This document shows, one piece after another, positions 15,295 through 31,826 of a stretch of DNA of 64,000 bases (positions are counted from its first letter, which is position 1; each line of letters begins with the position of its first letter). The translations under genes were made by a program, and so were the position numbers. This stretch comes from Streptomyces sp. NRRL S-31 (GTDB taxonomy: Bacteria > Actinomycetota > Actinomycetes > Streptomycetales > Streptomycetaceae). The stretch spans positions 62,001-126,000 of the forward strand of contig NZ_JOCB01000009.1 of NCBI RefSeq assembly GCF_000718775.1, read 5' to 3'. The notes under the pieces were generated by a model. That model searched no databases. It was not told the DNA's origin and was given only the letters and a program-made list of their open reading frames with translations.

Positions 15295-15310
15295 AGCCCC
15301 TGGGGGCTTT
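15295..15310 (+). terminator. Short terminator-like hairpin before lysis genes
   Basis: AGCCCC pairs with GGGGCT across a tiny loop and is followed by TTT. The stem is short, so it may only weaken read-through from the tail operon. It overlaps the first bases of element P1. Confidence 0.45.
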
Positions 15311-15333
15311 CCACTCACTAGACATAAGTAGAG
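15309..15333 (+). promoter_or_regulatory. Phage promoter-like element P1 (degenerate)
   Basis: TTCCACTCACT at 15309-15319 differs by one base from the shared box TTCGACTCACT. The second box (TAGAG) is not conserved, but the 9-base spacing is kept by alignment. It is 29 bases before the endolysin start and could give lysis genes their own transcription. Confidence 0.55.
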
Positions 15334-15362
15334 ACGTATGCCCCACAGGAAGGAGATGCGCA

Positions 15363-16121
15363 GTGGCTTCTACCGCTGATGCGATGCTGGCTCAGGCGGC
15401 TAAGGATGCCGATGCCGGATACAAGGAGGGTAAGAGCAACGACACTAAGTTCGGTCGCTGGTATCCCATGAACTACCAGCCGTGGTGTGACATGGCTGTC
15501 TCGAAGTGGGCTGAAGATTCCGGCAACGCCGATATCGTCGGCAAGTTCGCTTACTGCCCTTCGCATGTGAACTGGTTCAAGGCGCGCGGCCAGTGGCATG
15601 ATCGGGGTGCGGCTGTGAGGCGCGGCGATATTGTGTTTTTTTCCTGGGATGGTGGGCCGCTGGCTGACCATGTCGGTGTGGTCACGGCTGACGCTGCCGC
15701 TGGTGCTGACGTGCACACCATTGAGGGGAACACGTCCAGCGGCAATGCCGGTTCTCAGGGCAACGGGGATGGCGTCTACCGGCGCACCCGTGGCCGTGGT
15801 GTGATTCTCGGTTTCGGCCGTCCGTCCTACAAGGTTGCCCCTAAGCCGGCCGCAAAGTATGAGCCCTTCCCTGGGGTGGACTACTTCAAGAAGAACCCCC
15901 GTTCTTCGGTGATCACTCGCATGGGTGAGCGCCTGGTGGCTGAAGGCTACGGCGGCTACGCGAAGGGTCCGGGTCCACAGTGGACCGATGCTGACCGCCG
16001 GGCGTTCGCCTGGTGGCAGAAGGTCTACAGCGCGAAGAACCACCTTGGTTGGTCGGGTAGCGATGTGGACGGATGGCCGGGCAAGGCTTCGTGGGACGCG
16101 CTTAAGGTGCCGAAGGGCTAG
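15363..16121 (+). CDS. Endolysin: CHAP amidase/peptidase with C-terminal wall-binding domain
   Basis: This 252-residue protein should cut peptidoglycan at lysis. The N-terminal ~140 residues form a CHAP domain with catalytic Cys42 (QPWCDMAVSKW) and His103 (LADHVGVV), and an acidic partner near IEGNTSS. After a Pro/Ala linker at ~155, residues ~165-250 resemble the peptidoglycan-binding ends of Streptomyces phage lysins (FPGVDYFKKN, RAFAWWQKVYS). It starts at GTG 15363 after AAGGAGATG. No signal peptide is seen, so export should need the holin-type proteins that follow. Confidence 0.85.
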   Translation: MASTADAMLAQAAKDADAGYKEGKSNDTKFGRWYPMNYQPWCDMAVSKWAEDSGNADIVGKFAYCPSHVNWFKARGQWHDRGAAVRRGDIVFFSWDGGPLADHVGVVTADAAAGADVHTIEGNTSSGNAGSQGNGDGVYRRTRGRGVILGFGRPSYKVAPKPAAKYEPFPGVDYFKKNPRSSVITRMGERLVAEGYGGYAKGPGPQWTDADRRAFAWWQKVYSAKNHLGWSGSDVDGWPGKASWDALKVPKG

Positions 16122-16124
16122 CCA

Positions 16125-16367
16125 ATGCCACTACAGGAAGAGCCGGGAGCGTGGGTTCCCGGCTCTGAGATTTACGCGGAGCTACGGCGCTTGTCTGAGC
16201 TGGTGACCCGGCTGGATGAGCGCCTAGCGCACGACAAGACCGGCGACGACGTGGCGGACCTACAGACCCGTGTGAGCGCCCTAGAGCAGCGTGTGTGGCG
16301 CGCCTCCGGGTTCGCTGCCGCCGTAGGTGCCCTGGTTGGTGTCGCTGTGCCATTCCTGACGAAGTGA
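16125..16367 (+). CDS. Small membrane protein, probable lysis protein
   Basis: This is an 80-residue protein with a coiled-coil N-terminal half (ELRRLSELVTRLDERLA, LQTRVSALEQRV) and one C-terminal membrane helix (ASGFAAAVGALVGVAVPFL). This layout, coiled coil then a single tail helix, matches XhlA-like or DUF2746-like proteins coded beside actinophage holins. It starts 3 bases after the endolysin stop and very likely acts with it. Confidence 0.65.
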   Translation: MPLQEEPGAWVPGSEIYAELRRLSELVTRLDERLAHDKTGDDVADLQTRVSALEQRVWRASGFAAAVGALVGVAVPFLTK

Positions 16368-16377
16368 GGTAGGCCCT

Positions 16378-16575
16378 ATGGGGGCTCACAGCAAGCCCCG
16401 CAAGGCGTATGATTCCGCCTTCATGAGTGTGTATGACACTGCGGTATGGATTGCGAAGCATCGACGCAAGGTCTACGCGGCCCTGGTGGTACTTCTTCCG
16501 CTGGCTGCACGACTGGTCCCGGGCTTCCCGGCTGACGCACTGCTAGACGCCTGCAAGGTCTTCCTGGGCGCCTAG
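16378..16575 (+). CDS. Putative holin
   Basis: This 65-residue protein has a basic N-terminus (HSKPRKAYDS) and one clear membrane helix (VYAALVVLLPLAARLVPGF), followed by a short amphipathic tail. It is the last gene of the late unit, downstream of endolysin and the coiled-coil membrane protein. Size and topology fit a small holin, though the neighbour at 16125 could instead be the holin and this its partner. Confidence 0.6.
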   Translation: MGAHSKPRKAYDSAFMSVYDTAVWIAKHRRKVYAALVVLLPLAARLVPGFPADALLDACKVFLGA

Positions 16576-16578
16576 GCT

Positions 16579-16603
16579 TTCGACTCACTAACCCCCCAGT
16601 GCA
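16579..16603 (+). promoter_or_regulatory. Phage promoter-like element P2 (perfect both boxes)
   Basis: TTCGACTCACT at 16579 and GTGCA at 16599 are separated by 9 bases. It lies 28 bases before the dNMP kinase start, at the change from late to early genes, so it is a good candidate for an early promoter. Confidence 0.75.
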
Positions 16604-16631
16604 GGCGCGAATAGCGCCCGGAGGGAGAGAC

Positions 16632-17204
16632 GTGAGCTATCAGAACATTGCCTTCGTTGGCAAGGCTCGAAGCGGCAAGGACACGGCCGGCGAGCGCCTG
16701 GTGCAACACTGGATGTTTACTCGGCTGGCCTTCGCTGACCCGCTCAAGCGCATGGCGCTTCAAGTAGACCCGCTGATTCCCATGAAGCACTTGGACTCAC
16801 ATGCGCGCCTGTCTGCTTGCGTGACTGCCGCTGGTTGGGAAGACGCAAAGGATCGCTGGCCGGAGATTCGCCGGGTGCTCCAGCGCATGGGGCATACGGT
16901 CCGTGAGCTTGACCCTGACTTCTGGGTGCGAGCGCTCATGGATAAGGCGAAGGCTGCCGACGGCTGGAACATGCCCGTGGTCGTGACTGACTGCCGTTAC
17001 CGCAATGAGGCTGAGACGCTGCGCGCGGCTGGCTTCCGCCTGGTTCGCATCAAGCGCCCAACTCCGCTGAAGAAGATGAGGCGCGAAGCACTGCACCCCA
17101 GCGAGACCGAACTAGACGGCTACCCGTGTGATGACACGATCATCAACGCGGGCAGCGTCTTTGACCTGCACACAGCCGTTGACGCCCTGGTGCGCCGGCG
17201 CTGA
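16632..17204 (+). CDS. Deoxynucleoside monophosphate kinase
   Basis: This 190-residue protein has a P-loop at residues ~9-17 (GKARSGKDT), a start typical of phage dNMP kinases that phosphorylate dNMPs to feed phage DNA synthesis. VVVTDCRYRNEAETLR near residue 120 resembles the substrate-side Asp/Arg motif, and a late basic segment (RIKRPTPLKKMRREAL) fits a LID region. It starts at GTG 16632 after GAGGGAGAG. P2 is upstream and a terminator downstream, so it may be a single-gene unit. Confidence 0.85.
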   Translation: MSYQNIAFVGKARSGKDTAGERLVQHWMFTRLAFADPLKRMALQVDPLIPMKHLDSHARLSACVTAAGWEDAKDRWPEIRRVLQRMGHTVRELDPDFWVRALMDKAKAADGWNMPVVVTDCRYRNEAETLRAAGFRLVRIKRPTPLKKMRREALHPSETELDGYPCDDTIINAGSVFDLHTAVDALVRRR

Positions 17205-17210
17205 CCCCTG

Positions 17211-17254
17211 CCCCCTGGTGGCTCCCTGAGCGGAGTACGCCGGGGGGCTTTTTG
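17211..17254 (+). terminator. Rho-independent terminator after dNMP kinase
   Basis: GCCCCCTGG pairs with CCGGGGGGC across a loop of about 20 bases and is followed by TTTTT at 17249-17253. This is one of the clearest terminators in the early region. Confidence 0.75.
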
Positions 17255-17263
17255 CGTAACACT

Positions 17264-17285
17264 CACCTACGAATTTTCGGATGTG
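17264..17285. promoter_or_regulatory. Conserved inverted repeat CIR6
   Basis: The site reads CACCTACG-AATTTT-CGGATGTG. The strong half is on the left here, the reverse of CIR1-5. It lies 10 bases after the dNMP kinase terminator and upstream of the gene at 17359. Confidence 0.85.
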
Positions 17286-17313
17286 GTGGACACGATGCCC
17301 ATAGGTGGTGCTA

Positions 17314-17339
17314 CTGTTCTCACGTCGGCAAGAGAACAG
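17314..17339. repeat. Inverted repeat upstream of the 17359 gene
   Basis: CTGTTCTC (17314-17321) and GAGAACAG (17332-17339) are perfect complements separated by 10 bases. There is no T-run, so a terminator is unlikely. It could be an operator or a leader hairpin in front of the ribosome site at ~17345. Confidence 0.6.
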
Positions 17340-17358
17340 CGAAGGTGGGGTAACGGAA

Positions 17359-18630
17359 GTGCCTAAGAAGGGTGCACGCCAGCCGTGGCGTCTTACGTTC
17401 CAGTACGCGACTCAGGCCAAGGCATCCACGCACGCGCACTACACGGAAGAGGACGCACAGCGTCAGGCGGATGAGATGCTCGAGACCGCTGAGCGCCGTT
17501 CTAGCTCCGTTAGCCTCACCATCAGCAACCGTGACACGGGGGTGGCCTATGCCTACCCCATCAACCAGGGAGAGACCATGGCTGAGACCACCGTTGAGAA
17601 GCTTGACGTCAACGAAGACGCCGGTAAGGCTGCCCTTGAGCAGATCGACGCCAACATTGAGCGCGCTAAGACGCTTGCCACTGAGGGCAACACGGAAGCT
17701 CTTGACGCGCTGTTTGAGGAAAACGAAGCACTGATCTCCGCCCTTAGCGGTAAGGGCAGCATTAAGGCCAAGAAGGAGAAGCGCGACGCGTGGACTACAG
17801 CCGTAGATGAGGGCACGGCGGCAAAGGCTGAGGTGAAGAAGGTCACCGAAGGCAAGGTGATGGGTCCGGCATGGGACAAGATCGAGGGCGTTCCGGAGCT
17901 TGTAAACGCTGCCGCAGAAAAGCTCTCCGAGGGTGTCCGTCTGCACCTCAAGGGTTCCCAGGTGGCCAAGGATGTTGCCGCCGTGGTCTTTGAAGCATGG
18001 CTCAAGGTGGAGAACAGCGCGGGGGCCCCGGACATCCTCGGGGACATGGCTGAGTCCAAGAACATCAGCAAGGCCGTTCTGTCGGTTGCTGGTGGCGGCT
18101 TCGAAGACAACTGGGACAACAAGGAAGCACTTCGCAAGCTCATGCGGAGCGTGCAGGACTACCGTTCTGACGTGCGCGCTGAGTGGCTTCGGTCGCTGGA
18201 CGGAGACACGGAAGAGGCTGCCGCCCGGCGTGAACTGATGGCCAAGGTGCTTGAGGGTAAGCCGGAAGACGAGAAGGCATCGGAGTGGGTTGCCAACGTC
18301 TACGGCACCTCGACCATCGGTCAGGCGGAGAAGAAGCGCCTTGACTATCAGGAGAAGAAGAGGGCGGCTGAACTGACCGCTGGTGGCTCTGGGGCCGGCG
18401 AGGGTACCGGTGATGGCGAAGGCGACGCCGGCGACGACAAGCAGGAACCGGCCGATGAGACCAACCCGGATGAGTACCTGAGGAAGACTGTCGACCGACT
18501 CCTGAAGGACATCAGCAAGGCGAAGCCCGAAACGGTGGAGAAGGCCAGCGCTGAGACGAAGGAAGCCCAGCGGAAGCGCCTTGAGAAGGCTCTGGAAGCT
18601 CTGCGCGCCATGATCGCTGCCACCCTGTAG
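17359..18630 (+). CDS. Early protein of unknown function, 423 residues
   Basis: I do not recognise this family. The protein starts at GTG 17359 after GGTGGGG. Residues 1-73 look like a separate small domain (PKKGARQPWRLTFQYATQ, then SLTISNRDTGVAYAYP). The rest is highly charged and helical, with a Gly/Asp-rich linker near residue 350 and a C-terminal coiled segment (KKEAQRKRLEKALEALRAM-like). An internal ATG at 17578 has its own GGGAGA ribosome site and could give a 350-residue second product. CIR6 and the 17314 inverted repeat lie upstream, so repressor control is likely. Confidence 0.7.
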   Translation: MPKKGARQPWRLTFQYATQAKASTHAHYTEEDAQRQADEMLETAERRSSSVSLTISNRDTGVAYAYPINQGETMAETTVEKLDVNEDAGKAALEQIDANIERAKTLATEGNTEALDALFEENEALISALSGKGSIKAKKEKRDAWTTAVDEGTAAKAEVKKVTEGKVMGPAWDKIEGVPELVNAAAEKLSEGVRLHLKGSQVAKDVAAVVFEAWLKVENSAGAPDILGDMAESKNISKAVLSVAGGGFEDNWDNKEALRKLMRSVQDYRSDVRAEWLRSLDGDTEEAAARRELMAKVLEGKPEDEKASEWVANVYGTSTIGQAEKKRLDYQEKKRAAELTAGGSGAGEGTGDGEGDAGDDKQEPADETNPDEYLRKTVDRLLKDISKAKPETVEKASAETKEAQRKRLEKALEALRAMIAATL

Positions 18631-18643
18631 CAAGCGCAGAAGG

Positions 18644-18679
18644 GAAGGCCCGGAGGTACCCCCAGTGCCCCGGGCCTTC
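18644..18679 (+). terminator. Hairpin after the 17359 gene
   Basis: GAAGGCCCGG pairs with CCGGGCCTTC over 10 bases with a 16-base loop. There is no strong T-tail, but position after a stop codon and before CIR7 and P3 suits a transcript end. Confidence 0.6.
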
Positions 18680-18686
18680 ATGGTTA

Positions 18687-18708
18687 CACCTCCGAAAATC
18701 AGTAGGCA
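18687..18708. promoter_or_regulatory. Conserved inverted repeat CIR7, abutting P3
   Basis: The site reads CACCTCCG-AAAATC-AGTAGGCA, a degenerate copy. It ends at the base before the TTCGACTCACT box of P3, so a bound protein would sit directly on the upstream edge of that promoter-like element. Confidence 0.7.
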
Positions 18709-18733
18709 TTCGACTCACTAGGGAGCACGGTAT
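18709..18733 (+). promoter_or_regulatory. Phage promoter-like element P3
   Basis: TTCGACTCACT is perfect, followed by AGGGAGCAC. CGACTCACTA with GGGAG just after it looks very much like the T7 promoter core. The second box is degenerate (GGTAT) and overlaps the ATG of the next gene, so transcripts from here would be leaderless or serve the gene at 18923. Confidence 0.6.
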
Positions 18734-18926
18734 GGCCGATATGACCACGGAAGCGATTCAGGCCCGGGATGAAGCCCGGCGTGTGATCGCTGAACTAATC
18801 GCCCGGCACGGTGAAGCTCTACCCCTGCCGTTCGTGTCACGCCTTGAGGGCGCCCGGGACTGGCTTGAGAACTATGAAGAGTCTGGCATCACTCCGGAAG
18901 AGCCCATGCCGGTGCATCAGCAGTGA
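18732..18926 (+). CDS. Small early phage protein
   Basis: This 64-residue acidic protein (ARDEARRVIAELIARHGE, then LPFVSRLEGARDWLENYEE) is predicted to be two helices. It starts at ATG 18732, with GGGAG 8 bases upstream that is also part of element P3. Its stop overlaps the next start (GTGA). I do not know the family. Confidence 0.65.
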   Translation: MADMTTEAIQARDEARRVIAELIARHGEALPLPFVSRLEGARDWLENYEESGITPEEPMPVHQQ

Positions 18927-19183
18927 GTGAGGATGAGGCACAGACCTTGTGCCACAAGTGTCGTCTGATCCGCCCTATGCGGCTAATGATGGTTGACCCG
19001 GAAACGCGCACGATGTTCCACAACCCGCGCTGCGACCTTCCGGGCGGTCTTCTCGTGTGTAACCCGAACCTTGTTCAGTGCGGAGACCCGGAGCACGCCA
19101 CAGGCAGGCTGTTGCCCGGGGCAAGGCTGGCACCAATCGAAGGGAAGTGGCGTGAGGCTGAGCCATCCCGCATGAAGCCCTGA
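18923..19183 (+). CDS. Small Cys-rich early phage protein
   Basis: This 86-residue protein begins at GTG 18923, overlapping the previous stop. It has five cysteines: a CHKC knuckle near the start, CDLP near residue 38, and two later Cys in VCNPNLVQCGDPEH, with His nearby. A zinc-bound fold is likely. Such small zinc proteins often bind host proteins or DNA in early infection; here function is unknown. Confidence 0.65.
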   Translation: MSEDEAQTLCHKCRLIRPMRLMMVDPETRTMFHNPRCDLPGGLLVCNPNLVQCGDPEHATGRLLPGARLAPIEGKWREAEPSRMKP

Positions 19184-19204
19184 GCGCCTGCCTGAGCGCC
19201 TACT

Positions 19205-19238
19205 AGCCCCGTTGGGTCCCCGTGCCCGGTGGGGCTTT
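19205..19238 (+). terminator. Terminator after the 18732-18923 pair
   Basis: AGCCCC (19205-19210) pairs with GGGGCT (19231-19236), with TTT following. An inner GGG/CCC pairing is possible in the loop. Moderate stem strength. Confidence 0.55.
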
Positions 19239-19308
19239 CGCATGCCCTACAGCGCCCGTGTAGGAGGTGGAACGCCACCCTTACAGCGCTGACCACCTGA
19301 CCAGCCAT

Positions 19309-19403
19309 AGTGTAGAAGTGTAGAAGTAACCCCCAGTCTCGTAACACATATAGAAGTCTAAGGAGATACCCGGGACACGGCTCCGAACTACACAACTACA
19401 CAC
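19309..19403. repeat. GTGTAG repeat pair facing CTACAC repeat pair
   Basis: TAGTGTAGAAGTGTAGAAG at 19309-19327 holds two GTGTAG units 9 bases apart. ACTACACAACTACACAC at 19387-19403 holds two CTACAC units 8 bases apart on the other side of an AT-richer 60 bases. The pairs can base-pair with each other. The non-coding stretch 19184-19454 has no other clear gene; a replication origin or RNA structure is possible but not shown. Confidence 0.5.
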
Positions 19404-19408
19404 GCGCC

Positions 19409-19433
19409 TTCGACTCACTAGATAGGTAGTGAT
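19409..19433 (+). promoter_or_regulatory. Phage promoter-like element P4
   Basis: TTCGACTCACT is perfect; the second box is GTGAT (consensus GTGCA) at the standard 9-base spacing. It lies 21 bases before the nuclease gene at 19455. Confidence 0.7.
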
Positions 19434-19454
19434 ACCACTGAGGAAGGCGCCCAA

Positions 19455-20306
19455 ATGGCCAAGGTTGAGAACGACGAAACCGGCGGAAGTCGGGTGTATT
19501 TCCGGGCTACCAACCCGGATGAGCGGTACCCCAGCGTGACCACCATTGTGGACATGCTCCCGAAGAAGTTCCTACAGCGCTGGTACGCCAACCAAGCGGC
19601 TGAGCTTGCCCTAGACAGCATCGACTACCTACAGCGCATGGTGGACCGGGACCGAGAGGGAGCCCGTAAGTGGGTGGCCGGCGCTGCATGGCGCTACACC
19701 CGGGACCGGGCCGGTATCGGCTCGAAGGCCCATGACCTGTTTGAGCGCATGATACGCGGCCAGCAACTACGGCGCCAGCATCCGGACCTTGAGCCGTACC
19801 GCCGTAACTTCCGGGACTTCCTTGACACGGTCAAGCCTGAGCTGGTACGCGCTGAGGATGTGGCCTGGTGTGACCTGTACCAGTACGCCGGTTCCTTTGA
19901 TGCGTGGTTGCGCTTGCGCGTTCTGGTTCAGGCTGACGGTACATGGATGATCGCTCCGGACGATCCGGACGCCATCACGGTGGACGTGATCGCTGACTGG
20001 AAGACCAGTAAGAGCGTGTGGCCGAGCGTTGCCCTTCAGATGGCTGCCTACGCGTACGCGGACAAGATCATTGACCCTGACGGCAACGAAGAGCCCATGC
20101 CGGTCATCGACGGTGCCGTAGTCCTGCACATCACCCCGGAAGGCTGGACGCTGTACCCAGTCTACGCTCCGCAACTGGCCGAAGCCTTCAATCACTTCGT
20201 GTACCTCCGTCACACACTGGAGTGGGAGCGGTCCGGGTCACGCAAGGCTCTGGGTGCTGCACTGGCGTCTTCGCGTGAGCTTACTGGGACGGAGCGACGA
20301 GGGTAG
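19455..20306 (+). CDS. RecB/Cas4-like PD-(D/E)XK exonuclease
   Basis: This 283-residue protein has the Cas4/RecB nuclease signature: His93 in GSKAHDLFE, Asp149 in YAGSFDA, Asp181 and Lys183 in VIADWKTSKS, and Gln195 in ALQMAAYAY. These residues bind metal and cleave DNA in that family. The protein should resect DNA ends for phage recombination or replication. P4 precedes it, and the small membrane gene and directionality factor follow, the common early-gene order of serine-integrase Streptomyces phages. Confidence 0.82.
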   Translation: MAKVENDETGGSRVYFRATNPDERYPSVTTIVDMLPKKFLQRWYANQAAELALDSIDYLQRMVDRDREGARKWVAGAAWRYTRDRAGIGSKAHDLFERMIRGQQLRRQHPDLEPYRRNFRDFLDTVKPELVRAEDVAWCDLYQYAGSFDAWLRLRVLVQADGTWMIAPDDPDAITVDVIADWKTSKSVWPSVALQMAAYAYADKIIDPDGNEEPMPVIDGAVVLHITPEGWTLYPVYAPQLAEAFNHFVYLRHTLEWERSGSRKALGAALASSRELTGTERRG

Positions 20307-20309
20307 GCA

Positions 20310-20334
20310 TTCGGCTCACTAGACCATGGGTACA
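20310..20334 (+). promoter_or_regulatory. Phage promoter-like element P5
   Basis: TTCGGCTCACT has one mismatch and GTACA has one mismatch, with the 9-base spacing kept. It is 23 bases before the TTG start at 20358. Confidence 0.65.
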
Positions 20335-20624: not shown

Positions 20625-20655
20625 TGCGTTCTGGGCCTGGTCCCGCTGGCAGGCA

Positions 20656-20680
20656 TTCGACGCCCTAGACACCAAGTGCA
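20656..20680 (+). promoter_or_regulatory. Phage promoter-like element P6 (first of tandem pair)
   Basis: TTCGACGCCCT, 9 bases, then a perfect GTGCA. Two bases differ in the first box. It forms a tandem with P7, 56 bases downstream. Confidence 0.65.
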
Positions 20681-20711
20681 AGAGGAAAACGCGCGGCGGA
20701 CGGGGCAGGCA

Positions 20712-20736
20712 TTCGACCCCCTAGACCAAAAGCGCA
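20712..20736 (+). promoter_or_regulatory. Phage promoter-like element P7 (second of tandem pair)
   Basis: TTCGACCCCCT, 9 bases, then GCGCA. Both P6 and P7 are preceded by GGCA and followed by AAG, so about 30 bases were probably duplicated. They precede the directionality factor gene. Confidence 0.65.
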
Positions 20737-21672: not shown

Positions 21673-21945
21673 ATGGCTATCTACGGAGTTTTCCGCACCG
21701 ACGATGTCCAGCCGGGTGAGTTCGTTTCCGCTGTGGTGATCGCACCGGGTGTGGACCAGGCGCGGCGCGCTGTGGCTCATCTATCCGGTGTGGTTGCGAC
21801 CGGCAAGGGCCGGAACGTGAAGGCTGAGAAGCTGGACACCACGGGCGCAACGCGTCTGGTTTCCATCTACGAGGATGAGCGGACCCCTGAGCCGGCGGAG
21901 GATGACCCGGCTGACAACTACCCCTATGACGACATGATCGGCTGA
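21673..21945 (+). CDS. Small acidic early phage protein, 90 residues
   Basis: The protein starts at ATG 21673 with GGAGAG upstream. The first ~65 residues look like an alpha/beta domain (IYGVFRTDDVQPGEFVSAVV), and the tail is strongly acidic (EPAEDDPADNYPYDDM), which could mimic nucleic acid or bind a basic partner. Function is unknown. Confidence 0.6.
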   Translation: MAIYGVFRTDDVQPGEFVSAVVIAPGVDQARRAVAHLSGVVATGKGRNVKAEKLDTTGATRLVSIYEDERTPEPAEDDPADNYPYDDMIG

Positions 21946-24299: not shown

Positions 24300-24312
24300 G
24301 CGCGGGCACGCA

Positions 24313-24337
24313 TTCGACTCACTCACCTCCCAGTGCA
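24313..24337 (+). promoter_or_regulatory. Phage promoter-like element P8 (perfect both boxes)
   Basis: TTCGACTCACT and GTGCA are both perfect at 9-base spacing. It is 20 bases before the primase-helicase start. Confidence 0.75.
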
Positions 24338-24357: not shown

Positions 24358-26814
24358 GTGCTTTTCGTTGACATTCTCGGCAAGTTCCGGGACGTGAGTG
24401 AGCACGATGACGGGGGCTATATCGCGCTGTGCCCGGCGCACAAGGACACTGACCCGTCGCTGCGGATTTGGCGGGGAGATGACAACAAGGTTCGGCTGAC
24501 GTGCCGCGCGGGATGCTCCACAGGGGCCATCATTCAGGCCGTTGAGCTGGGTTGGCCGGACCTGTTCAATGCCGAAGGCGAAGGCTCCACGGTTCCGAAG
24601 GAGAGGCCCGCCATGGTCGGCACCACCCAGATTGCCGCACTGGCCGGCTACGTGGATGATGCCCGGGACCGGCTGAGCGACGGAGGGGGAGAGTACACGG
24701 CGGCAGCGCTGGCCTATCTCGCTGACCGGTTCGGCATGGACGCTGACACAGCCTATGAACTGGGCATCGGGTACCACGGGCCGGACGTCATTGACCCGTT
24801 CCCGTTCCTGTCACGGAGCTTCAAGGCGTTCCCCCGGGTGACCGTGCCGCTGTGCAACTTCGCTGGGAATCCCAGCGGCTTGCAGGGTCGAGACATTACG
24901 GGGGAGTGCCCCGGGCGCTGGGTTGGTCTCCGTAATCCGGAAGGCTTCCGCTGGGCTCAGTATGGCGTCTTCCGGGGCCAGGGTGGCTACGGAGTCATCC
25001 TGGTGACCGAAGGCCCGGGGGATGGACTTACAGGCGTGGCTGTGGGCTATGACGTGGTGTTGATACGTGGCGCTGCCCTGGTGGGGAATCCTGAGCTTCT
25101 GGCGGAGCTTGCCGAGGGGCTTAAGGGCTATCAGGTCATCGCGTGTGGTGACGTGGACTCCGCTGGCCAGGGGTTCAACGCTCGGCTGGCCGAAGGATTC
25201 AAGCCGTACGGCATCATGGTCTATGCTCTGGACATCCCGCGCCTGAGCGCTAAGACGGACCTGACTGAGTGGCGTGAGTCGGAGCCACAGACCTTTGCGC
25301 TGAGCCTGCACCGGGCTGTCAAGGCGGCTAAGCCTGTGGCGAAGCCTGAAGAAGCACGGCGCGAAGCTGTCAGCGAAGAGCTTGCCGAAGCCACTGGGGC
25401 GGACATCGTCAGCCGGGACCAGGGCAACGAAGCGGCGCGCATCCTGGCTGGTCTTCTGGAACGCTACGGCGACACGGACGCCATGAATGCTCACGCGCTG
25501 GTTGCCTGGTGTGACGGACGCATCAAGTATGCGCCTGGACTGGGGTTCTACGTCTGGGATGGCCGTACGTGGGTGCGTTCTGAGGTCCGAGTGCGACAGG
25601 AGATCCATCGCATGGGCGCCGCTCTGGTGCTGGCCGGTAGGGTCAAGGAAGCTCGGGGTTTCACCATGACTTCGCGCATCAACGACCTGATGACAGAGCT
25701 TCGGAGCGTTCCCACTGTCTACGTGGAAGCCTCCGAATTCGATAACCGGCCTGATCTCCTGAGTTTTCGGAATGGGACTGTTGAGCTTAACACCGGGCGC
25801 CTTCGTCCGCACAGGCCGGCGGACATGCTGACGTACTGTCTCGATATCGACTATGACCCGGACGCTCAGTGTCCCCGCTGGGAACAGTTCTTGACGGAAG
25901 TCTTCCCGGACAACGTTGACCTGGTGCCCTATATGCAGCGCGTCATCGGGTACGGCATTACCGGCTACACGGACGAACAGTGTTTTTGTGTTTTTTGGGG
26001 AAAGGGAGCCAACGGCAAATCCGTACTGACTGACACGCTGTCCAGCGTCTTCCGGACCATCAGCAAGACCACACCCTTTGCCACGTTCGAGGAAAAGCCT
26101 AACGGCGGCATTCCCAACGATATTGCTGCTCTCCGGGGGTCCCGTCTGGTAATGGCGTCTGAGGGCGAGTCAGGCAAGCCCATGTCTGAAGCCGTGCTCA
26201 AGCGCGTAACGGGAAAGGACATGATTGCTGCCCGGTTCCTTCGTCAGGAGTTCTTCGAGTTCAAGCCCAGTTTCTTGCTCATGCTGGCTACGAACCACAA
26301 GCCCAAGTTCAGGGGGCAGGATGAAGGTCTCTGGCGCCGGGTCAAGATGATTCCGTTCACGCGCTACTTTGCGCCCCATGAGCGAGACTACAACCTTGAC
26401 AAGAAGCTTGAGGCGGAGGCACAGGGAATCGCGGCGTGGGCCGTTCGTGGCGCGGTTGCCTGGTTCGCTGAGGGTTTGTGCGATCCGGAGTCCATCAGCG
26501 CTGCGACGAAGGAGTACAAGGAGACTTCTGACGCGCTGGCTGGCTTTTACTCGGACGATCCGAGTATGCCGGCCGTCCTGGTGAAGGATGACAGCACGCG
26601 CATCGACGGGTCGGAGGCGTACCAGGCTTACCGCGACTGGTGCGAAGCTGAGGGCCTGCCAGGTAAGGAAGTGTGGTCCCGACGCGCCTTCTACGGAGCC
26701 ATGGAAGAGCGGGGTATCACCCGCAAGCGTTCTTCCAAGGGAATGGCGCTGGTAGGCGTTCGACTCACTAACAATCAGGCGCAAGCGGGTCACGGCATTT
26801 TCGCTGGCGACTGA
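24358..26814 (+). CDS. Primase-helicase (TOPRIM + D5/P4-like)
   Basis: This 818-residue replication protein begins with a CHC2-like zinc motif (Cys25, His28, Cys49, Cys53 in LCPAHKD and LTCRAGC). A TOPRIM domain follows at ~220-280 (VTEGPGDGLTGV, VIACGDVDSAGQG). A D5-type segment is at ~480-540, and a superfamily 3 helicase domain has Walker A at ~548-555 (GKGANGKS) and a Walker B-like AALRGSRLVMASEGES. It should prime and unwind phage DNA with the polymerase at 28229. GTG 24358 follows GGAAGGGGC. Element P9 lies inside its 3' end. Confidence 0.9.
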   Translation: MLFVDILGKFRDVSEHDDGGYIALCPAHKDTDPSLRIWRGDDNKVRLTCRAGCSTGAIIQAVELGWPDLFNAEGEGSTVPKERPAMVGTTQIAALAGYVDDARDRLSDGGGEYTAAALAYLADRFGMDADTAYELGIGYHGPDVIDPFPFLSRSFKAFPRVTVPLCNFAGNPSGLQGRDITGECPGRWVGLRNPEGFRWAQYGVFRGQGGYGVILVTEGPGDGLTGVAVGYDVVLIRGAALVGNPELLAELAEGLKGYQVIACGDVDSAGQGFNARLAEGFKPYGIMVYALDIPRLSAKTDLTEWRESEPQTFALSLHRAVKAAKPVAKPEEARREAVSEELAEATGADIVSRDQGNEAARILAGLLERYGDTDAMNAHALVAWCDGRIKYAPGLGFYVWDGRTWVRSEVRVRQEIHRMGAALVLAGRVKEARGFTMTSRINDLMTELRSVPTVYVEASEFDNRPDLLSFRNGTVELNTGRLRPHRPADMLTYCLDIDYDPDAQCPRWEQFLTEVFPDNVDLVPYMQRVIGYGITGYTDEQCFCVFWGKGANGKSVLTDTLSSVFRTISKTTPFATFEEKPNGGIPNDIAALRGSRLVMASEGESGKPMSEAVLKRVTGKDMIAARFLRQEFFEFKPSFLLMLATNHKPKFRGQDEGLWRRVKMIPFTRYFAPHERDYNLDKKLEAEAQGIAAWAVRGAVAWFAEGLCDPESISAATKEYKETSDALAGFYSDDPSMPAVLVKDDSTRIDGSEAYQAYRDWCEAEGLPGKEVWSRRAFYGAMEERGITRKRSSKGMALVGVRLTNNQAQAGHGIFAGD
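26759..26783 (+). promoter_or_regulatory. Phage promoter-like element P9, inside the primase gene end
   Basis: TTCGACTCACT is perfect, followed by 9 bases and GCGCA. It lies in coding sequence (residues VRLTNNQA). A transcript starting here would meet the CIR9 hairpin-terminator before the methyltransferase gene. Confidence 0.65.
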
Positions 26815-26837
26815 CACAACCACAACCACATACCGAT

Positions 26838-26873
26838 AAGGGTCACCTCCGAAAATCCGGGGGTGACCCTTTT
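26838..26873 (+). terminator. Composite terminator with operator CIR9 as its stem
   Basis: AAGGGTCACC pairs with GGTGACCCTT and a T-run follows (TTTTG). The middle of this hairpin is the conserved repeat CIR9 (26844-26865). The same bases can thus end transcription as RNA and bind repressor as DNA. Confidence 0.8.
26844..26865. promoter_or_regulatory. Conserved inverted repeat CIR9
   Basis: The site reads CACCTCCG-AAAATC-CGGGGGTG, with CGGGGGTG replacing the usual CGTAGGTG. It is embedded in a terminator and is identical to CIR10 at 28181, which has the same design. Confidence 0.8.
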
Positions 26874-26890
26874 GCATGGACGGAGAGACC

Positions 26891-27391
26891 ATGCCAATCC
26901 TTGAGCTGTGTGCGGGGTACGGCGGGCTAGGCATAGCTGTTGAGCAACTGACCGGAGACAAGGTCACGGTGGTTGCCGAAGTCCACAAGGCAGCCTGTCA
27001 GGTGATGGCCTATCGCTTCCCGGACGCGCCCAACGTGGGTGACGTTCGGTACGCCCCATGGGAAGAGCTACGGGGTGAAGTGGACACCATCACGGCGGGG
27101 TTCCCCTGTCAGGACATCAGTAACGCGGGCAAGCGTGAAGGGATCAAGGGTGAGCGCTCCGGAATCTGGTTCAACGTTGCAGACGCCATTCGGATTCTTC
27201 GACCCGGATACGTCTTCTTGGAGAACGTCGGAGCGATCCGAAATCGGGGACAAGGCGCAGTGCTCACATCGCTTCACGAAATCGGGTATAGCGCTGCATG
27301 GACAGCTATTCGAGCGTCCGACACCGGAGCGCCGCACGAAAGGCTCCGATGGTTCTGCGTTGCCACTCCTACCCACTCCGACCGTGTCTGA
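26891..27391 (+). CDS. C5 cytosine DNA methyltransferase, N-terminal part (frame ends early)
   Basis: The frame holds motif I (LELCAGYGGLGIA), motif IV with the catalytic Cys (AGFPCQDISNAG), motif VI (FLENVGAIRNRG) and motif VIII-like HERLRWFCVAT. It then stops at 27391. Motifs IX-X lie in the +1-shifted frame downstream (27357-27962). I chose ATG 26891 with GGAGAG upstream; ATG 26876 lacks a site. In lysogens or virions the enzyme would shield phage DNA from restriction. With the frame break it is probably inactive unless a shift restores it. Confidence 0.8.
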   Translation: MPILELCAGYGGLGIAVEQLTGDKVTVVAEVHKAACQVMAYRFPDAPNVGDVRYAPWEELRGEVDTITAGFPCQDISNAGKREGIKGERSGIWFNVADAIRILRPGYVFLENVGAIRNRGQGAVLTSLHEIGYSAAWTAIRASDTGAPHERLRWFCVATPTHSDRV

Positions 27392-27962
27392 CGCTGACCG
27401 GGGGCCGGATTTCGCCAAGGCGTCGCGCCCCGGTGCTGGTGGGGATGACCTGGTGACAGCCGTGGCCCGACTGTTTCCACGGGACCGGGCTGACAAGCTC
27501 TTCAAGACGCCTACGGCGAATCTGGGTTCAAACGGCTCTGCCCAGCACCCGGACAAGCGCAAGGCTGGCGGGCACGGGCCAACGCTTGAGGACGAAGTGG
27601 TCTTCTTGCTGAACGTGACGCCGGAAGACGTAAGCGTGGTGCACTGGAAGGACGATGGTCCGCACAGTCCGGCTGAGTGGTGGAACGAGTACGCACCAGC
27701 CGTGTATCGCTGGGAAGTCATCAGGGGCACAGCCGCCCCGGTGCCAGTGATCCGGGGTCCGCGTGGGGGAGTGAAGCTGTCCCCGGAGTTCGCTGAATGG
27801 ATGATGGGCCTAGATCCTGGGTGGGTCACCAACGTCCCAGGGCTGACGCACAAGGAAAAGCTTGAGCGCATCGGCAATGGCGTGGTGCCGCACCAGGCGT
27901 TCTACGCTTTTCGGCACCTCAAGGCGCAGCTTGATGAAGCGGTCACGGCGGAGGTGCAGTGA
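27357..27962 (+). pseudogene. C5 cytosine DNA methyltransferase, C-terminal part in another frame
   Basis: This frame continues the methyltransferase: LPLLPTPTVSDADRGPDF, common in phage enzymes after motif VIII, then EFAEWMMGLDPGWVT and the motif X IGNGVVPHQAFYAFRHL. It has no start codon with a ribosome site of its own near 27357, so it should be joined to the N-terminal part. The two frames meet at a near-repeat of CCACTCC. A deletion between such repeats, a single indel, or programmed +1 shifting could explain it. Confidence 0.7.
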
Positions 27963-28162
27963 TGCAGTGCGAATGGATCAGCTATGCGCCTGGTAGGTGT
28001 GAGAGCTGGAAGTGTCACCACACGCGGAACGGGGTCAGGAAGGCAATTGCGTACGGGACTGAGGGGCTGACCCTCTTCTCCAGGGGCCGACTGCCGGGGA
28101 GCGGCGCCGTGGTCTTCGTTGAGGTTCCCCGCGAGAACTGGGAACAACTCTTCGGCGCGTAA
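27962..28162 (+). CDS. Small Cys-containing phage protein, 66 residues
   Basis: The ATG at 27962 overlaps the methyltransferase stop by one base. The protein has three N-terminal Cys and two His (CEWISYAPGRCESWKCHHTR), possibly binding zinc, and a beta-rich end (GSGAVVFVEVPRENW). It precedes composite terminator/operator CIR10. Unknown function; it may belong with the methyltransferase. Confidence 0.6.
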   Translation: MQCEWISYAPGRCESWKCHHTRNGVRKAIAYGTEGLTLFSRGRLPGSGAVVFVEVPRENWEQLFGA

Positions 28163-28173
28163 CCGAATAGCAG

Positions 28174-28210
28174 AAGGGGTCACCTCCGAAAATCCGGGGG
28201 TGGCCCCTTT
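28174..28210 (+). terminator. Composite terminator with operator CIR10 as its stem
   Basis: AAGGGGTCACC pairs imperfectly with GGTGGCCCCTT, and TTG follows. As at 26838, the conserved repeat forms the centre of the hairpin. Confidence 0.75.
28181..28202. promoter_or_regulatory. Conserved inverted repeat CIR10
   Basis: The site reads CACCTCCG-AAAATC-CGGGGGTG, identical to CIR9. It is upstream of the DNA polymerase gene. Confidence 0.8.
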
Positions 28211-28228
28211 GTGTTGAGGGGAGACAGC

Positions 28229-30088
28229 ATGAAGGTTTTCAACTACGCGATAGCCGGCGAACCGGTGCAGGTCAAGGTGCCTGAGTCCTATGACGACTTG
28301 CTCATGTTCTGGGCTTGGTTCGTAGAAGCGGACAACAGGGGGCCTATTGGTCTCGACACGGAAACCACGGGCCTTGACGTATATTCGCCGGGCTACAAGC
28401 TCCGCACTGTCCAGTTTGGCGATAGGCATACCGGGTGGGTGATCCTGTGGGAACTGGGCGGCTACTTTCATGAGTTCGCGCTTCGGGCGCTGCGCCATGG
28501 CAAGAAATTCCAGATCCACAACGCGCCCTTTGACTGGGCTGTCTTGGACCGGCATGCGCCGGGCATGAGCATTGAGCTTCTGGCCCAGAAGACCATCGAT
28601 ACCCGCTTGAAGGCTGGCCTGGTGGACCCGCGCCAGCCCCAGGAAGGTGGACGGGGTACGGCACTCAAGCCGCTTATGGCCTGGTACGTGGACCCGAAGG
28701 CACCGGACACCCAGGGAGACCTTACGGCGGTCTTCCGGTCGCTCAAGCTCACGAAGGCAACTGGGTGGGCCGGTATCGACCTGATGCACCCTACATACCT
28801 TCTGTATGCCGGCCTTGACCCCATCTTCGCTGCCCGGCTGGACACTTGCCTTGACCGTGAACTTGACATGCTCGAAGTGCGGCCCCGGCTGGTCCAGTAT
28901 GAGCACGAGATAGCCCGTATCTGCGCAATCATGCAGCGCAAGGGCATGGTGCTTGACGTGGACTACACCCGCGAGCTTGATGAACGGCTGGCCAGCGAAG
29001 CCCTGATGCATGAAGCGGCCTGTCTTCGCTATGGGGTCACCAATGTCAACGCGCCGGCACAGCTTCGGGAAGCGCTCAAGGGTATGGGGGAGGTGTGGTC
29101 AGCGGATGAGCTGACCGCTACCGGGGCGCTCAAGGTGGACAAGGCAGTCTTGCACCGGTTCGCTGACCTTGACTTTCAGACCGGCAAGCCGCTAGGAACG
29201 CGCAAGCCCAACCCGCTGGCTGAGGCCATCATCAAGAGTAAGCGGGCCGGTAAGTGGCGCAGTGCCTATACCCAGACCTTCCTTGATGTCATGGACAGCG
29301 ACGGGCGCCTGCACAGTTTCGTGAACAGCATGCAGGCGCGCACGGGCCGCATGAGTATCACGCGTCCTGCACTTCAAACGCTGCCTTCTGGTGACGCAAT
29401 GATCCGGCGCTGTCTGATGGCTGATGAGGGCGAAGTGGTGGTATCCACGGACTTTGCCGCTGTTGAGATGCGCGTGCTTGCTGCGTTGGCTGATGTCAAG
29501 CGCATGAAGGAAGCCATTACCAACGGTGAAGACCTGCATGCCTTCACAGCACGCCAGGTTTACGGCGAAGGCTTCACCAAACAGCATCGCAAGGTTTGTA
29601 AGGGCGTGGGCTTCTCGAAGGTCTATGGGGGTGGAGCGGCCACGACTGCAAGGCAGACCGGTGCACCCCTTGCGGACGTTCAGCGCGCCATGACTGCATA
29701 TGACCGGGTGTATCCGGAGATTCGGCGTTACTCCAACCGGTTGCAGCGTCAGGCGTATGACAACGGCTTTGTTGGCGTGAGCATCACCGGCCGACGCCTG
29801 CCTGTCGACCGGGACCGGGTCTATGCCGTGACTAACTACGCCGTGCAGAGCGCTGCCCGTGACTGCCTTGGTCAGAGCCTGATCAACCTAGAAAACGCCG
29901 GGCTTCTGGACACGCTCCGCTTGCCGATCCATGACGAAGTGCTTGCCAGTGTGCCGAAGGCGGAATCGGCAGACTACGCAAAGGCCATTGAGAAGTGCAT
30001 GACCTTCGACCTTATGGGAGTGCCCATTGAGGCCGAAGCAGAGGTAGGCAAGCGTTCGTGGGGGTCGCTGTACGGCGCTGAGGTGTGA
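28229..30088 (+). CDS. DNA polymerase, family A, with 3'-5' exonuclease
   Basis: This 619-residue protein is a phage-type DNA polymerase I. The exonuclease domain has GLDTETTGLD near residue 43, with Asp43 and Glu45 as metal ligands. The polymerase domain has motif A (STDFAAVEMRVLAAL, ~407), motif B with KVCKGVGFSKVYGGGA (~455) and motif C HDEV (~568). It lacks a 5'-3' exonuclease domain, as usual in phages. ATG 28229 follows GGGGAGAC. With the primase-helicase it makes up the replication core. The motif A-C spacing and HDEV support DNA polymerase, not a T7-like RNA polymerase. Confidence 0.92.
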   Translation: MKVFNYAIAGEPVQVKVPESYDDLLMFWAWFVEADNRGPIGLDTETTGLDVYSPGYKLRTVQFGDRHTGWVILWELGGYFHEFALRALRHGKKFQIHNAPFDWAVLDRHAPGMSIELLAQKTIDTRLKAGLVDPRQPQEGGRGTALKPLMAWYVDPKAPDTQGDLTAVFRSLKLTKATGWAGIDLMHPTYLLYAGLDPIFAARLDTCLDRELDMLEVRPRLVQYEHEIARICAIMQRKGMVLDVDYTRELDERLASEALMHEAACLRYGVTNVNAPAQLREALKGMGEVWSADELTATGALKVDKAVLHRFADLDFQTGKPLGTRKPNPLAEAIIKSKRAGKWRSAYTQTFLDVMDSDGRLHSFVNSMQARTGRMSITRPALQTLPSGDAMIRRCLMADEGEVVVSTDFAAVEMRVLAALADVKRMKEAITNGEDLHAFTARQVYGEGFTKQHRKVCKGVGFSKVYGGGAATTARQTGAPLADVQRAMTAYDRVYPEIRRYSNRLQRQAYDNGFVGVSITGRRLPVDRDRVYAVTNYAVQSAARDCLGQSLINLENAGLLDTLRLPIHDEVLASVPKAESADYAKAIEKCMTFDLMGVPIEAEAEVGKRSWGSLYGAEV

Positions 30089-30105
30089 TCCGCGCCACTC
30101 CTGAT

Positions 30106-30144
30106 GGTGACTGCCTGTGGCATATGCCGCTACGGGCAGTCACC
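30106..30144 (+). terminator. Hairpin after DNA polymerase, sharing bases with CIR11
   Basis: GGTGACTGCC pairs perfectly with GGCAGTCACC, with a second palindrome GGCATATGCC in the loop. The right arm contains the first four bases of CIR11. There is no T-run. Confidence 0.6.
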
Positions 30145-30162
30145 TACGGATTTTCGGAGGTG
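30141..30162. promoter_or_regulatory. Conserved inverted repeat CIR11
   Basis: The site reads CACCTACG-GATTTT-CGGAGGTG, strong half on the left. A lone half-site with the same CACCTACGAAAA start occurs 235 bases downstream (30376). Confidence 0.85.
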
Positions 30163-30570
30163 GTCCGTTCGAAAAGTTCCCATGATCTTTTGTCCGGTTC
30201 GCCTGATGGCCTCTCGAAGGTCGGCACCTTCGTAATGCAGGCGTGATCCCCGGTATGCGCCTACCGCGCCCCTACATCTGAAGGATGATGGCGGGTTACG
30301 CCTTCGAATCTTCAGGCAACCGTCTTGGCCGGCCCCGGGTCTAGCTGGTGTCTCTGCGCCCCAAGGCGCTTGCACCACCTACGAAAAAGCGTTCTACTCA
30401 GTCCAGCGTTCGAGGGGTCCGGCCGGAACTTCGAACACAAGCGGAAGCCCCTGGAACGGGGTCTAGTCCCGCCTGTGTCTCCTACTGCCATGCTGCGGCA
30501 CCCCCATGCCCAAAACAGGGTGTGACGCGCGTCACATGTAGTTCCGGCCGGACCAGCCCCGTTCCGGGCT
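30163..30570. other. Structured non-coding region between polymerase and sigma-like genes
   Basis: About 400 bases hold no convincing gene; the long frame through it lacks start and ribosome sites. A perfect 15-base inverted repeat, GGTCCGGCCGGAACT at 30417 and AGTTCCGGCCGGACC at 30540, spans ~110 bases. A second pair (GGAACGGGGTC with GACC-AG-CCCCGTTCC) lies inside and beside it. A half-CIR (30376) and a CRP-like palindrome (30521) are also present. This could be a replication origin or a regulatory RNA leader. Confidence 0.55.
30521..30536. promoter_or_regulatory. Perfect CRP-type palindrome
   Basis: TGTGACGCGCGTCACA is a perfect 16-base palindrome and matches TGTGA-N6-TCACA, the classical CRP/FNR-family site. 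It sits 35 bases upstream of P10 and 85 bases before the sigma-like gene, so host Crp could affect that gene. Confidence 0.55.
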
Positions 30571-30595
30571 TTCGACTCACTCACCCATCAGTGCA
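30571..30595 (+). promoter_or_regulatory. Phage promoter-like element P10 (perfect both boxes)
   Basis: TTCGACTCACT and GTGCA are both perfect at 9-base spacing, 25 bases before the sigma-like gene. If that protein reads this element, the gene activates itself. Confidence 0.75.
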
Positions 30596-30620
30596 GCGAT
30601 CGAAACCCGGAGGGAAACCC

Positions 30621-31550
30621 ATGTCTGAGACCCTGACCCTTGAACTGATCCGTGACGCACAGAACAACGGACTCAAGGGGCTTGAGGCGGTCAACAGCGC
30701 CATGGCTAGCCGCATACGCAAGCTGGCTGACGCTGCCGCCCGGCGCATGTCGGACAGCTACAGCCGTATCGATGACCACCGTGAAGACTTCCGACAGGAT
30801 GCCGCCGTGGCCCTGTTCGAGGCCCTGCCGCGATTCAAGGGAAACACCGTTGAGATGTTCTACGGGTTCATGTGGGGGACCATTGAAGATCGCCTCAAGG
30901 ACAAGGTCCGCGAAGAGCGAAACGGCGGGGCGGACATGGACGCTGTGAAGGTCTTTGGCGCCATGGTTGAGCGTGCTGGCGGGGATGTCTTCCTGGCTGA
31001 GAAGATGGCACAGACTGTGCCCCCGAAGGGGCGTAGGCTGAGCGCTGACCGGGCGGCGGCTGCCCGGCTGGCTTGGCAGGGCGCTGCATCCCTTGACTTC
31101 CCGTTCACCACCTTCTACAACACGGACGGTGGTTCCAGGACAGCACCCGATGGAACCGTGACTGTTTCGCTGGGTGAGTATCTGGTGGACCGGTACAACG
31201 ACATGCCGGAAGACCTGGTCACCTCCGAAGATGTGACCAAGGAAGTGAACCGAGTCAAGCACGCGCTTGTTCACGCCGTTCTGGACAGCATGGGCGCCAA
31301 CCAGGCCAATGCGCTTCGACACTCCTATGGCATTGGCAACGTGAGGTGCTACGGCACGGGGGACAGCGGAGACCTTGAGGGGCTGGCCGATGAACTGGGT
31401 ATCACGCCGTTGCAGGCCCGGGATGCCCGCACGAAGGGGCATAAGGCTTTCGCCAAGCGCTACATAAAGGCAGTCGCCCGGGACGCTGCCCACGAGGCAG
31501 AGCTGACCGAAGCGGCTGCCATCAACCTGGGTCGGGGTGGACGCAAGTAG
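30621..31550 (+). CDS. Sigma-factor-like protein
   Basis: This 309-residue protein resembles a diverged sigma factor. Residues ~52-99 (DDHREDFRQDAAVALFEALP, RFKG, then FYGFMWGTIEDRLKDKVREE) follow the sigma region 2 pattern in which a D-x-x-Q-E/D helix leads to an F-x-x-W/Y-x-x-x-x-I-R/D-x-x-L segment. The C-terminal part (LEGLADELGITPLQARDARTKGHKAF in segments) looks like region 4 helix-turn-helix. Between them lies an insert of ~110 residues. ATG 30621 follows GGAGGG. It is a good candidate to direct host RNA polymerase to the TTCGACTCACT elements; that link is inference. Confidence 0.65.
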   Translation: MSETLTLELIRDAQNNGLKGLEAVNSAMASRIRKLADAAARRMSDSYSRIDDHREDFRQDAAVALFEALPRFKGNTVEMFYGFMWGTIEDRLKDKVREERNGGADMDAVKVFGAMVERAGGDVFLAEKMAQTVPPKGRRLSADRAAAARLAWQGAASLDFPFTTFYNTDGGSRTAPDGTVTVSLGEYLVDRYNDMPEDLVTSEDVTKEVNRVKHALVHAVLDSMGANQANALRHSYGIGNVRCYGTGDSGDLEGLADELGITPLQARDARTKGHKAFAKRYIKAVARDAAHEAELTEAAAINLGRGGRK

Positions 31551-31814
31551 GTGCAACCCCTGTATGCCGCCCTGTACCTGTCTCAGCGACGAGTCAGGGC
31601 GGTCCCCTACAAGCGCGCCGAGGTGTTCACACGGTGGGGCGGTACATGCGCCTACTGCGACGCGCCGGCCGAACACCTAGATCACGTCAAGCCATTTGCC
31701 CTGGGTGGTCGTGACGTACTGTCAAACGTCATCCCGGCATGCGCTGACTGCAATCGCAGCAAGGGTGACCAGTCTCTAGCCCAGTGGGCGGCTGGCTGGC
31801 ATTCGACTCACTAA
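31551..31814 (+). CDS. HNH endonuclease-like protein (HNH-B)
   Basis: This 87-residue protein begins at GTG 31551, the base after the sigma-like stop. It has the HNH core CAYCDAPAEHLDHVKPFALG, then NVIPACADCNRSKG, very similar to HNH-A at 23853 but without the N-terminal zinc finger. Its last codons (HSTH, stop) are the bases of promoter-like element P11. It may cut DNA during packaging or recombination; not proven. Confidence 0.78.
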   Translation: MQPLYAALYLSQRRVRAVPYKRAEVFTRWGGTCAYCDAPAEHLDHVKPFALGGRDVLSNVIPACADCNRSKGDQSLAQWAAGWHSTH

Positions 31815-31826
31815 CACCAGGGCACA
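31802..31826 (+). promoter_or_regulatory. Phage promoter-like element P11
   Basis: TTCGACTCACT is perfect; the second box is GCACA at 9-base spacing. It overlaps the 3' end of HNH-B and lies 23 bases before the next start. Confidence 0.65.

Follow-up and report, generated by a model that had tools for sequence, protein, structure and literature searches.

Repeated promoter-like elements in a phiC31-like Streptomyces prophage and their probable reader, a phage sigma factor

A stretch of 64,000 nucleotides from Streptomyces sp. NRRL S-31 (contig NZ_JOCB01000009.1, positions 62,001 to 126,000; here the window) contains eleven copies of a bipartite element, an 18-bp first box with a second box, GTGCA, 9 bases further on. 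The question raised by this locus is which protein reads these copies, and how. The window covers most of a phiC31-like prophage, with genes for endolysin, dNMP kinase, repressor, exonuclease, a gp3-like protein, primase, methylases, DNA polymerase, and a sigma factor; the left end, with integrase, tRNA array, and terminase, falls beyond the window on that contig. phiC31 is a standard tool in actinomycete genetics and is known for promoters of this kind, active only in lytic growth. Comparison with relatives suggests that the elements are probably promoters, recognised by the host's core RNA polymerase together with the phage sigma factor that is encoded at 30621-31550. At heart the class is an ordinary one, that of phage sigma promoters of the phiC31 type. 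Beyond that class, the locus would offer a likely reader for the promoters, a readout divided into modules, a revised start site, and, unexpectedly, a control region at the sigma gene.

All 11 copies proposed by an earlier sequence-only reading lie at the starts it gave, all on the + strand, and its tally of first boxes is right, with 7 of 11 perfect and 4 of 11 one or two bases off. The joint two-box pattern at three mismatches or fewer has 9 matches, all on the + strand, where 0.56 are expected, and none of 100 shuffles reaches 9. In the whole 8.74 Mb genome, TTCGACTCACT has 8 exact matches on the forward strand and 0 on the reverse; all are on the prophage contig, 7 inside the window and 1 located 5 kb to its left. 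When the first box is extended by GGCN (GGCNTTCGACTCACT), the prophage holds all 6 exact matches of the genome and 10 of the 12 at up to one mismatch. At up to two mismatches its share falls to 12 of 64, which means that the looser matches are mostly chance. The exact first box to the left of the window, a twelfth site, is at C9:57037, ~190 bp before an array of 7 tRNA genes. Whole-genome 12-mer counts were dropped as motif evidence, being swamped by coding bias.

The second box, which the sequence-only reading placed at 9 bases in all copies, is less regular. At the distance of 9 bases the full GTGCA stands in 4 of 11 copies, 3-4 of its 5 letters in another 5, and a single letter in the copies at 15309 and 18709, which are taken as lacking it. 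The GGC(A/T) said usually to precede the first box is directly 5' of it in 8 copies and missing in the other 3. Likewise, most copies had been placed 20-30 bases before an early gene: a start codon with a Shine-Dalgarno sequence (SD) does follow the second-box end by 20-30 bases in 8 of 11 copies, and an SD-led start lies within 75 nt in 8 of 11, but the genes are not all early, since the copy at 15309 precedes the endolysin gene and the twelfth site precedes tRNAs.

The product of the gene at 30621, already put forward as the actor at these promoters, matches a PHROG sigma factor with an E of 6e-100. Its structure model (pLDDT 80, pTM 0.43) gave good domain-level matches for sigma regions 2 and 4 in a Foldseek search; the VIA-align list is a re-examination of those Foldseek matches only. 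Its alignment with phiC31 gp12, which is named RNA polymerase sigma factor in RefSeq, has 36% identity and large gaps. Family match and modelled domains together indicate that the 30621 protein is a sigma factor.

A sigma that reads the box should change together with it, domain by domain. Loci around sigma orthologs comprised the best 80 of 97, plus 2 from another search, for a total of 82. L024, where the contig start truncates the gene, was excluded; removal of redundancy reduced the other 81 to 65, and dropping L059, without a box, left 64 for covariation. These form 21 clusters at 60% identity, and 55 of the 64 have at least four other promoters. In 56 of the 81 loci a CGACTC-type core, with no more than one deviating letter, is found 33-58 nt upstream of the sigma gene; most of the other 25 have a variant box, judged by eye. 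The box families are GGCATTCGACTC, GGTCACCGACTCCCTT, GGTAACCGACTCGCTAG, CTTAACCCACTCACTC, and GGAATTCCTTGCTCTC. At L015 the sigma is 100% identical to that of the window, and this locus is probably the same phage as the window prophage.

Partial Mantel tests on the 64 loci divide the box among the domains. Variation in the seven leftmost bases tracks region 4, and variation in the centre tracks the middle domain (residues 106-160); at the right end the association with region 2 is stronger than that with region 4. The same order is found on the other promoters of the 55 loci, with the sigma gene's own promoter excluded. Counted from the core C, positions -6 to +1 go with region 4 (coefficients 0.47, 0.46), positions 0 to +4 with the middle domain (0.79), and positions +6 to +13 with region 2 (0.48, 0.40), where region 4 also has 0.25 at +6 to +10. 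The 30621 protein thus covaries, in its domains, with the motif that it had been proposed to act on. Judged by eye, L035, L049, L050, and L052 have region 2 and the right end nearly in common and differ in region 4 and the left end. Three of them, L035, L049, and L052, look like natural recombinants, with near-identical region 2 and different region 4 and left half-boxes. Residue-by-base mutual information gave mixed top pairs and was left unused. In the proposed mechanism, region 4 would read GGCATTC, the middle domain would read the centre, CGACTC, and region 2 would read the right end, CT(A/C) and onward, as a -10 element.

Several observations weigh against this assignment. Two copies, at 15309 and 18709, are without a second box, and the Pfam sigma region 2 score of the protein is 20.7 bits, below the cut-off of 24. 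The centre also follows region 2 given region 4 (0.15, p 0.0065). A cruder comparison of discordant pairs failed to separate the box halves: with region 2 close and region 4 far (127 pairs) the left distance is 0.37 and the right 0.40, and with region 4 close and region 2 far (19 pairs) the distances are 0.31 and 0.43. Given that the 64 loci are only 21 clusters, the covariation p-values are optimistic.

A motif search over related phage genomes, named as a check by the sequence-only reading, finds homologs in phiC31, phiBT1, and Rowa. GGGTTGCCGACTCCCTT in phiC31 and GTCACCGACTCCCTT in phiBT1 are found on the + strand in front of early genes, among them the sigma gene. GTCACCGACTCCCTT emerged de novo from phiBT1 upstream regions, alongside the separate CIR operators, and led to GGGTTGCCGACTCCCTT; a phiC31 scan with the window's own matrix gave nothing convincing. 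At one mismatch or fewer, CCGACTCNCTT occurs 12 times on the + strand and 5 times on the - strand in phiC31, and 17 and 2 times in phiBT1. Position weight matrix matches above the reverse-strand maximum number 15 in phiC31 and 13 in phiBT1, a few of them intragenic and probably chance. Streptomyces phage Rowa, the nearest phage-collection record (47% of a 21-kb query, 76.9% identity), shares the first box, at corresponding places and with a tandem pair in front of the gp3-like gene; its second box differs, being TTCCGAAG-like and one base nearer. The class membership suggested earlier is supported: as with the phiC31 lytic promoters, homologous motifs stand on the + strand before early genes, a sigma ortholog has its own copy upstream, CIR operators are present, and the prophage carries phiC31-type gp3, gp12, and repressor. 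The box differs, GGCATTCGACTCACT in the window and GGGTTGCCGACTCCCTT in phiC31, and region 4 of sigma differs too. A literature search returned no paper linking gp12 to the phiC31 lytic promoters among its best 10-20 matches, with the phiC31 papers of the 1990s outside its reach.

The sigma gene's own promoter lies in a repeat. The 65 nt before the sigma start codon fold as a nested hairpin with a mean z of -3.19 (65 loci), compared with -0.38 at 576 other motif sites, some of them chance sites and all folded from box-anchored rather than start-codon-anchored segments, and -0.19 at 260 random stretches. The z is below -2 in 49 of the 65 sigma loci versus 12% of other motif sites and 8% of random stretches; by cluster it is below -2 in 15 of 21, and 12 of the 65 loci stand at -1.4 or above. 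An arm-swap test took the place of global alignment covariation. Although the arm sequences diverge strongly from phage to phage, each arm pairs more stably with its own partner than with a swapped one, at -24.8 versus -16.3 kcal/mol, a difference of 8.5; controls differ by 0.8-3.6 in nine draws and by 4.7 for a stretch further upstream. MAFFT with RNAalifold on the phiBT1/phiC31 group (15 sequences) gave 13 pairs, 4 with two-sided changes and a covariation term of only -0.3, and on a second group of 11 sequences with differing loop lengths it gave 0 pairs. Loss of the 5' arm raises computed SD exposure by a median log2 of 1.61 (n 64) versus 0.51 at other promoters (n 172; p 0.0008), from 0.033 to 0.164 in the window, and single loci such as L086 show the opposite change.

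Given that the inferred start, ~30590, falls between the arms, read-through RNA would carry this lock and RNA from copy 10 would not. The hairpin may therefore hide the ribosome site of the sigma gene only in read-through mRNA, a reading that can be held with moderate confidence. Two points tell against it and would fit an operator for a dimeric regulator in the DNA, a terminator, or an RNase III site instead: the opposite strand carries a repeat of almost equal strength (mean z -2.90), and mismatches within the stems (A-C 26, G-T 9) lack the G-U preference that would mark a sense RNA. Such a role is possible but somewhat doubtful, since it is the diverged arms' preference for their own partner and the larger gain in SD accessibility that set the sigma loci apart from the controls. 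G-U counts from folding both strands (33/1194 vs 230/1433) reflect base composition only and were discarded. The hidden ribosome site has a parallel in the T4 genes e, soc, and I-TevI, where a late promoter lies inside a hairpin that hides the ribosome-binding site (PMC3014915, PMC2988022), so that read-through RNA can fold over the site and RNA from the internal phage-sigma promoter is without the 5' arm. The difference is that the locked gene here is sigma itself and the lock would give positive feedback; sequences and host are unrelated.

Upstream of the sigma promoter is a perfect Crp-like palindrome, TGTGA-N6-TCACA, one of 6 in the genome (2 for a reversed control pattern). Sites matching it in 8 or more of 10 letters occur no further than 140 bp upstream of the sigma promoter at 27 of the 64 loci and in 8 of 21 clusters, against a background of 3.8% of comparison segments and 3.1% of 410 other promoters. 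Loci without one include L060 and the GGTAACC loci. At 16 of the 27 the site is centred 44.5 bp upstream of the core (-44.5); among the other 11, 3 deviate from this by no more than two bases, 5 stand closer by about one helical turn, and 3 by about two. One host protein is a very close match to solved Crp/Fnr regulators (E ~1e-80 or lower for 2pqq, 3i54, and 3d0s, which are actinobacterial Crp). A cNMP-binding profile has no match on the prophage's contig and 8 elsewhere in the genome. The locus thus resembles Class I/II Crp promoters in its positions relative to the inferred start, in the close Crp of the host, and in the fit of the palindrome to the Streptomyces coelicolor Crp consensus, GTG(N)6GNCAC (PMC10033298). 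It differs in that the putative site would act on a phage-sigma promoter. The chances are about even that host cAMP-Crp acts at the sigma promoter through this candidate site.

Where RNA begins was judged from 223 promoters followed by an ORF with an SD of at least five letters. The SD begins at +21 or earlier in ~5% of them, some of the ORFs being doubtful. Annotated genes with an early SD follow phiC31 12984 and phiBT1 12341 (both +19, before gp46), phiBT1 27081 (+24, gp9.1), and phiC31 27591 (+25, DNA polymerase); other such ORFs follow L038 5159, L039 5232, L041 5230, and L022 4774, those of L038, L039, and L041 having the SD at +21 and being by position apparently one gene. Since several phages have SDs that begin at +19 to +25, RNA synthesis must be initiated no later than the second box. 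Most likely, then, the second box (~+18 to +24) would serve as start region, and the -10 element would be the right end of the first box. This puts the probable start ~17-20 bases beyond the core C.

A canonical geometry was implied by the sequence-only reading, which expected starts 5-12 bases downstream of the second box; the left part would be the -35 element and the second box the -10 element. The spacing between left part and second box is indeed near the canonical 17 bp, and the second box is conserved within a phage. This arrangement is unlikely, given that such starts would cut off the ribosome site in the phages with early SDs, and that region 2 covaries with +6 to +16 and is without signal at +15 to +25; covariation and SD positions point to a spacing shorter than the canonical one. 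Moreover, if RNA starts at +17 the Crp-like sites are centred on -61.5, about -51, and about -41, and only a start near +17 gives the first and last of these. The standard Crp positions are -61.5 and -41.5. A start at the second box has its own difficulties. The second box, canonically spaced from the left part, is without region 2 covariation, and a weak region 4 signal appears at +15 to +22 (0.20-0.24, p 0.01-0.02). The normal spacing of regions 4 and 2 is ~22 bp, and the part read by region 4 is directly beside the centre, ~12 bp from the presumed -10. Either region 4 sits unusually or the -10 assignment is wrong.

A further account makes the copies host sigma promoters with a phage activator on the first box, the sigma-like protein acting elsewhere. 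A first box of this length is long for a sigma element, and a host-like -10 (TAGGTA/TATAGGTAG) lies downstream of some copies, such as phiC31 12984 and 40574. The account is nevertheless improbable, since three parts of the box covary with three sigma domains in the order in which they lie on the DNA, sigma being the sole phage protein compared. Reading by a single-subunit RNA polymerase of T7 type is practically out of the question: the ten core bases shared with the T7 promoter, noted by the sequence-only reading, and the compact contiguous form look like coincidence, since T7 uses a different polymerase, the core is not conserved in the phiC31-like family and is replaced in relatives using the same sigma family (CGACTCCCTT, CGAACCGCTA, CCTTGCTCTC), and a PF00940 profile search of the genome gave no match, with control genomes equally silent.

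Reading by host core polymerase with the phage sigma suggests how the elements would work. In the lytic phase, replication genes, lysis, and the tRNA/late region would all be turned on jointly by the sigma. The sigma gene would itself be transcribed from such a promoter, and, as a less certain step, that promoter would stand inside the hairpin, so that sigma would be made mainly from sigma-started RNA. The Crp-like site upstream might let host cAMP gate the sigma promoter. Tentatively, the sigma gene might then be a master switch with three locks (its own sigma, the hidden ribosome site, and Crp at this promoter only), giving an all-or-none, nutrient-gated entry into the lytic cycle by positive feedback, with region 4, the middle domain, and region 2 of the sigma bound to a single contiguous 18-bp element in an unusually tight layout. 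The covariation would name the factor that reads the phiC31 lytic promoters, split the promoter by reader, and predict start sites. If true, the hairpin and the Crp site would make the onset of the lytic cycle depend on host nutrition by way of a single gene, and an orthogonal sigma/promoter toolkit would be on offer.

Table 1. Element copies and associated features, in positions of the window
Feature	Position	Strand	Remark
Copy 1	15305..15333	+	GGCTTTCCACTCACT, without second box; precedes endolysin gene 15363-16121
Copy 2	16575..16603	+	perfect; precedes dNMP kinase gene
Copy 3	18705..18733	+	first box perfect, without second box; directly after repressor gene
Copy 4	19405..19433	+	precedes exonuclease gene 19455
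Copy 5	20306..20334	+	precedes small ORF 20358
Copy 6	20652..20680	+	first member of tandem pair
Copy 7	20708..20736	+	second member of tandem pair; precedes phiC31 gp3-like gene 20763
Copy 8	24309..24337	+	perfect; precedes DNA primase
Copy 9	26755..26783	+	within 3' end of primase ORF; methylase ORF 26876 starts 115 bp on
Copy 10	30567..30595	+	perfect; probable promoter of sigma gene
Copy 11	31798..31826	+	precedes ORF 31850
Phage sigma factor, 309 aa	30621..31550	+	ortholog of phiC31 gp12 and Rowa gp42
Inferred reader of copy 10, region 4	30567-30574	+	covariation
Inferred reader of copy 10, middle domain	30573-30580	+	covariation
Inferred reader of copy 10, region 2	30579-30589	+	covariation
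Predicted transcription start of copy 10	30590..30592	+	inferred, ~3 bases either way
Predicted RNA hairpin, 22 pairs	30558..30614	+	5' arm 30558-30584 with promoter; 3' arm 30591-30614 with sigma-gene SD
Perfect Crp-like palindrome TGTGA-N6-TCACA	30521..30536		centre 44.5 bp upstream of core C
CIR-like operator	15271-15292		ends 16 bp upstream of copy 1 box
CIR-like site	18687-18708		abuts copy 3
CIR-type operator	30141..30162		in gap between DNA polymerase and sigma genes

CIR-type operators number 13 at five differences or fewer in window 1-37000, a raw count. Such an operator adjoins each of copies 1 and 3, the two that lack a second box. Rowa likewise has a CIR, at 21730, directly before the element copy at 21764, which follows the repressor gene. 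The small ORF at 18732 has its start codon just 21 bases from the core of copy 3 (18711-18734), which means that RNA from this copy would be nearly leaderless.

Between the DNA polymerase and sigma genes, 30089-30620 is a stretch of ~530 bp without a gene of annotated type, as also in Rowa and phiC31. Within it lies, besides the CIR and the Crp-like site, a CCGGCCGG element that precedes the sigma promoter and recurs in many relatives. An Rfam scan of window 1-37000 matched no family.

Before the gp3-like gene, two variant boxes form a tandem pair 55-56 bp apart, at 20656/20712 in the window and 24302/24357 in L002, and the variants stand in opposite order in the two. The copies at phiC31 (L001) 12984 and 40574 and at L012 12341 and 40856 run on into CATATAGGTAG or CGTRTAGGTAG, resembling a host -10. 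These copies precede late genes or tRNAs and may be a late subclass. Some promoters other than that of sigma also lie in strong hairpins (z -4 to -7), namely L083 7610, L054 7615, L060 7602, L075 7655, L073 7617, and L066 2728. Five of these are near 7.6 kb of their locus and perhaps belong to the same gene.

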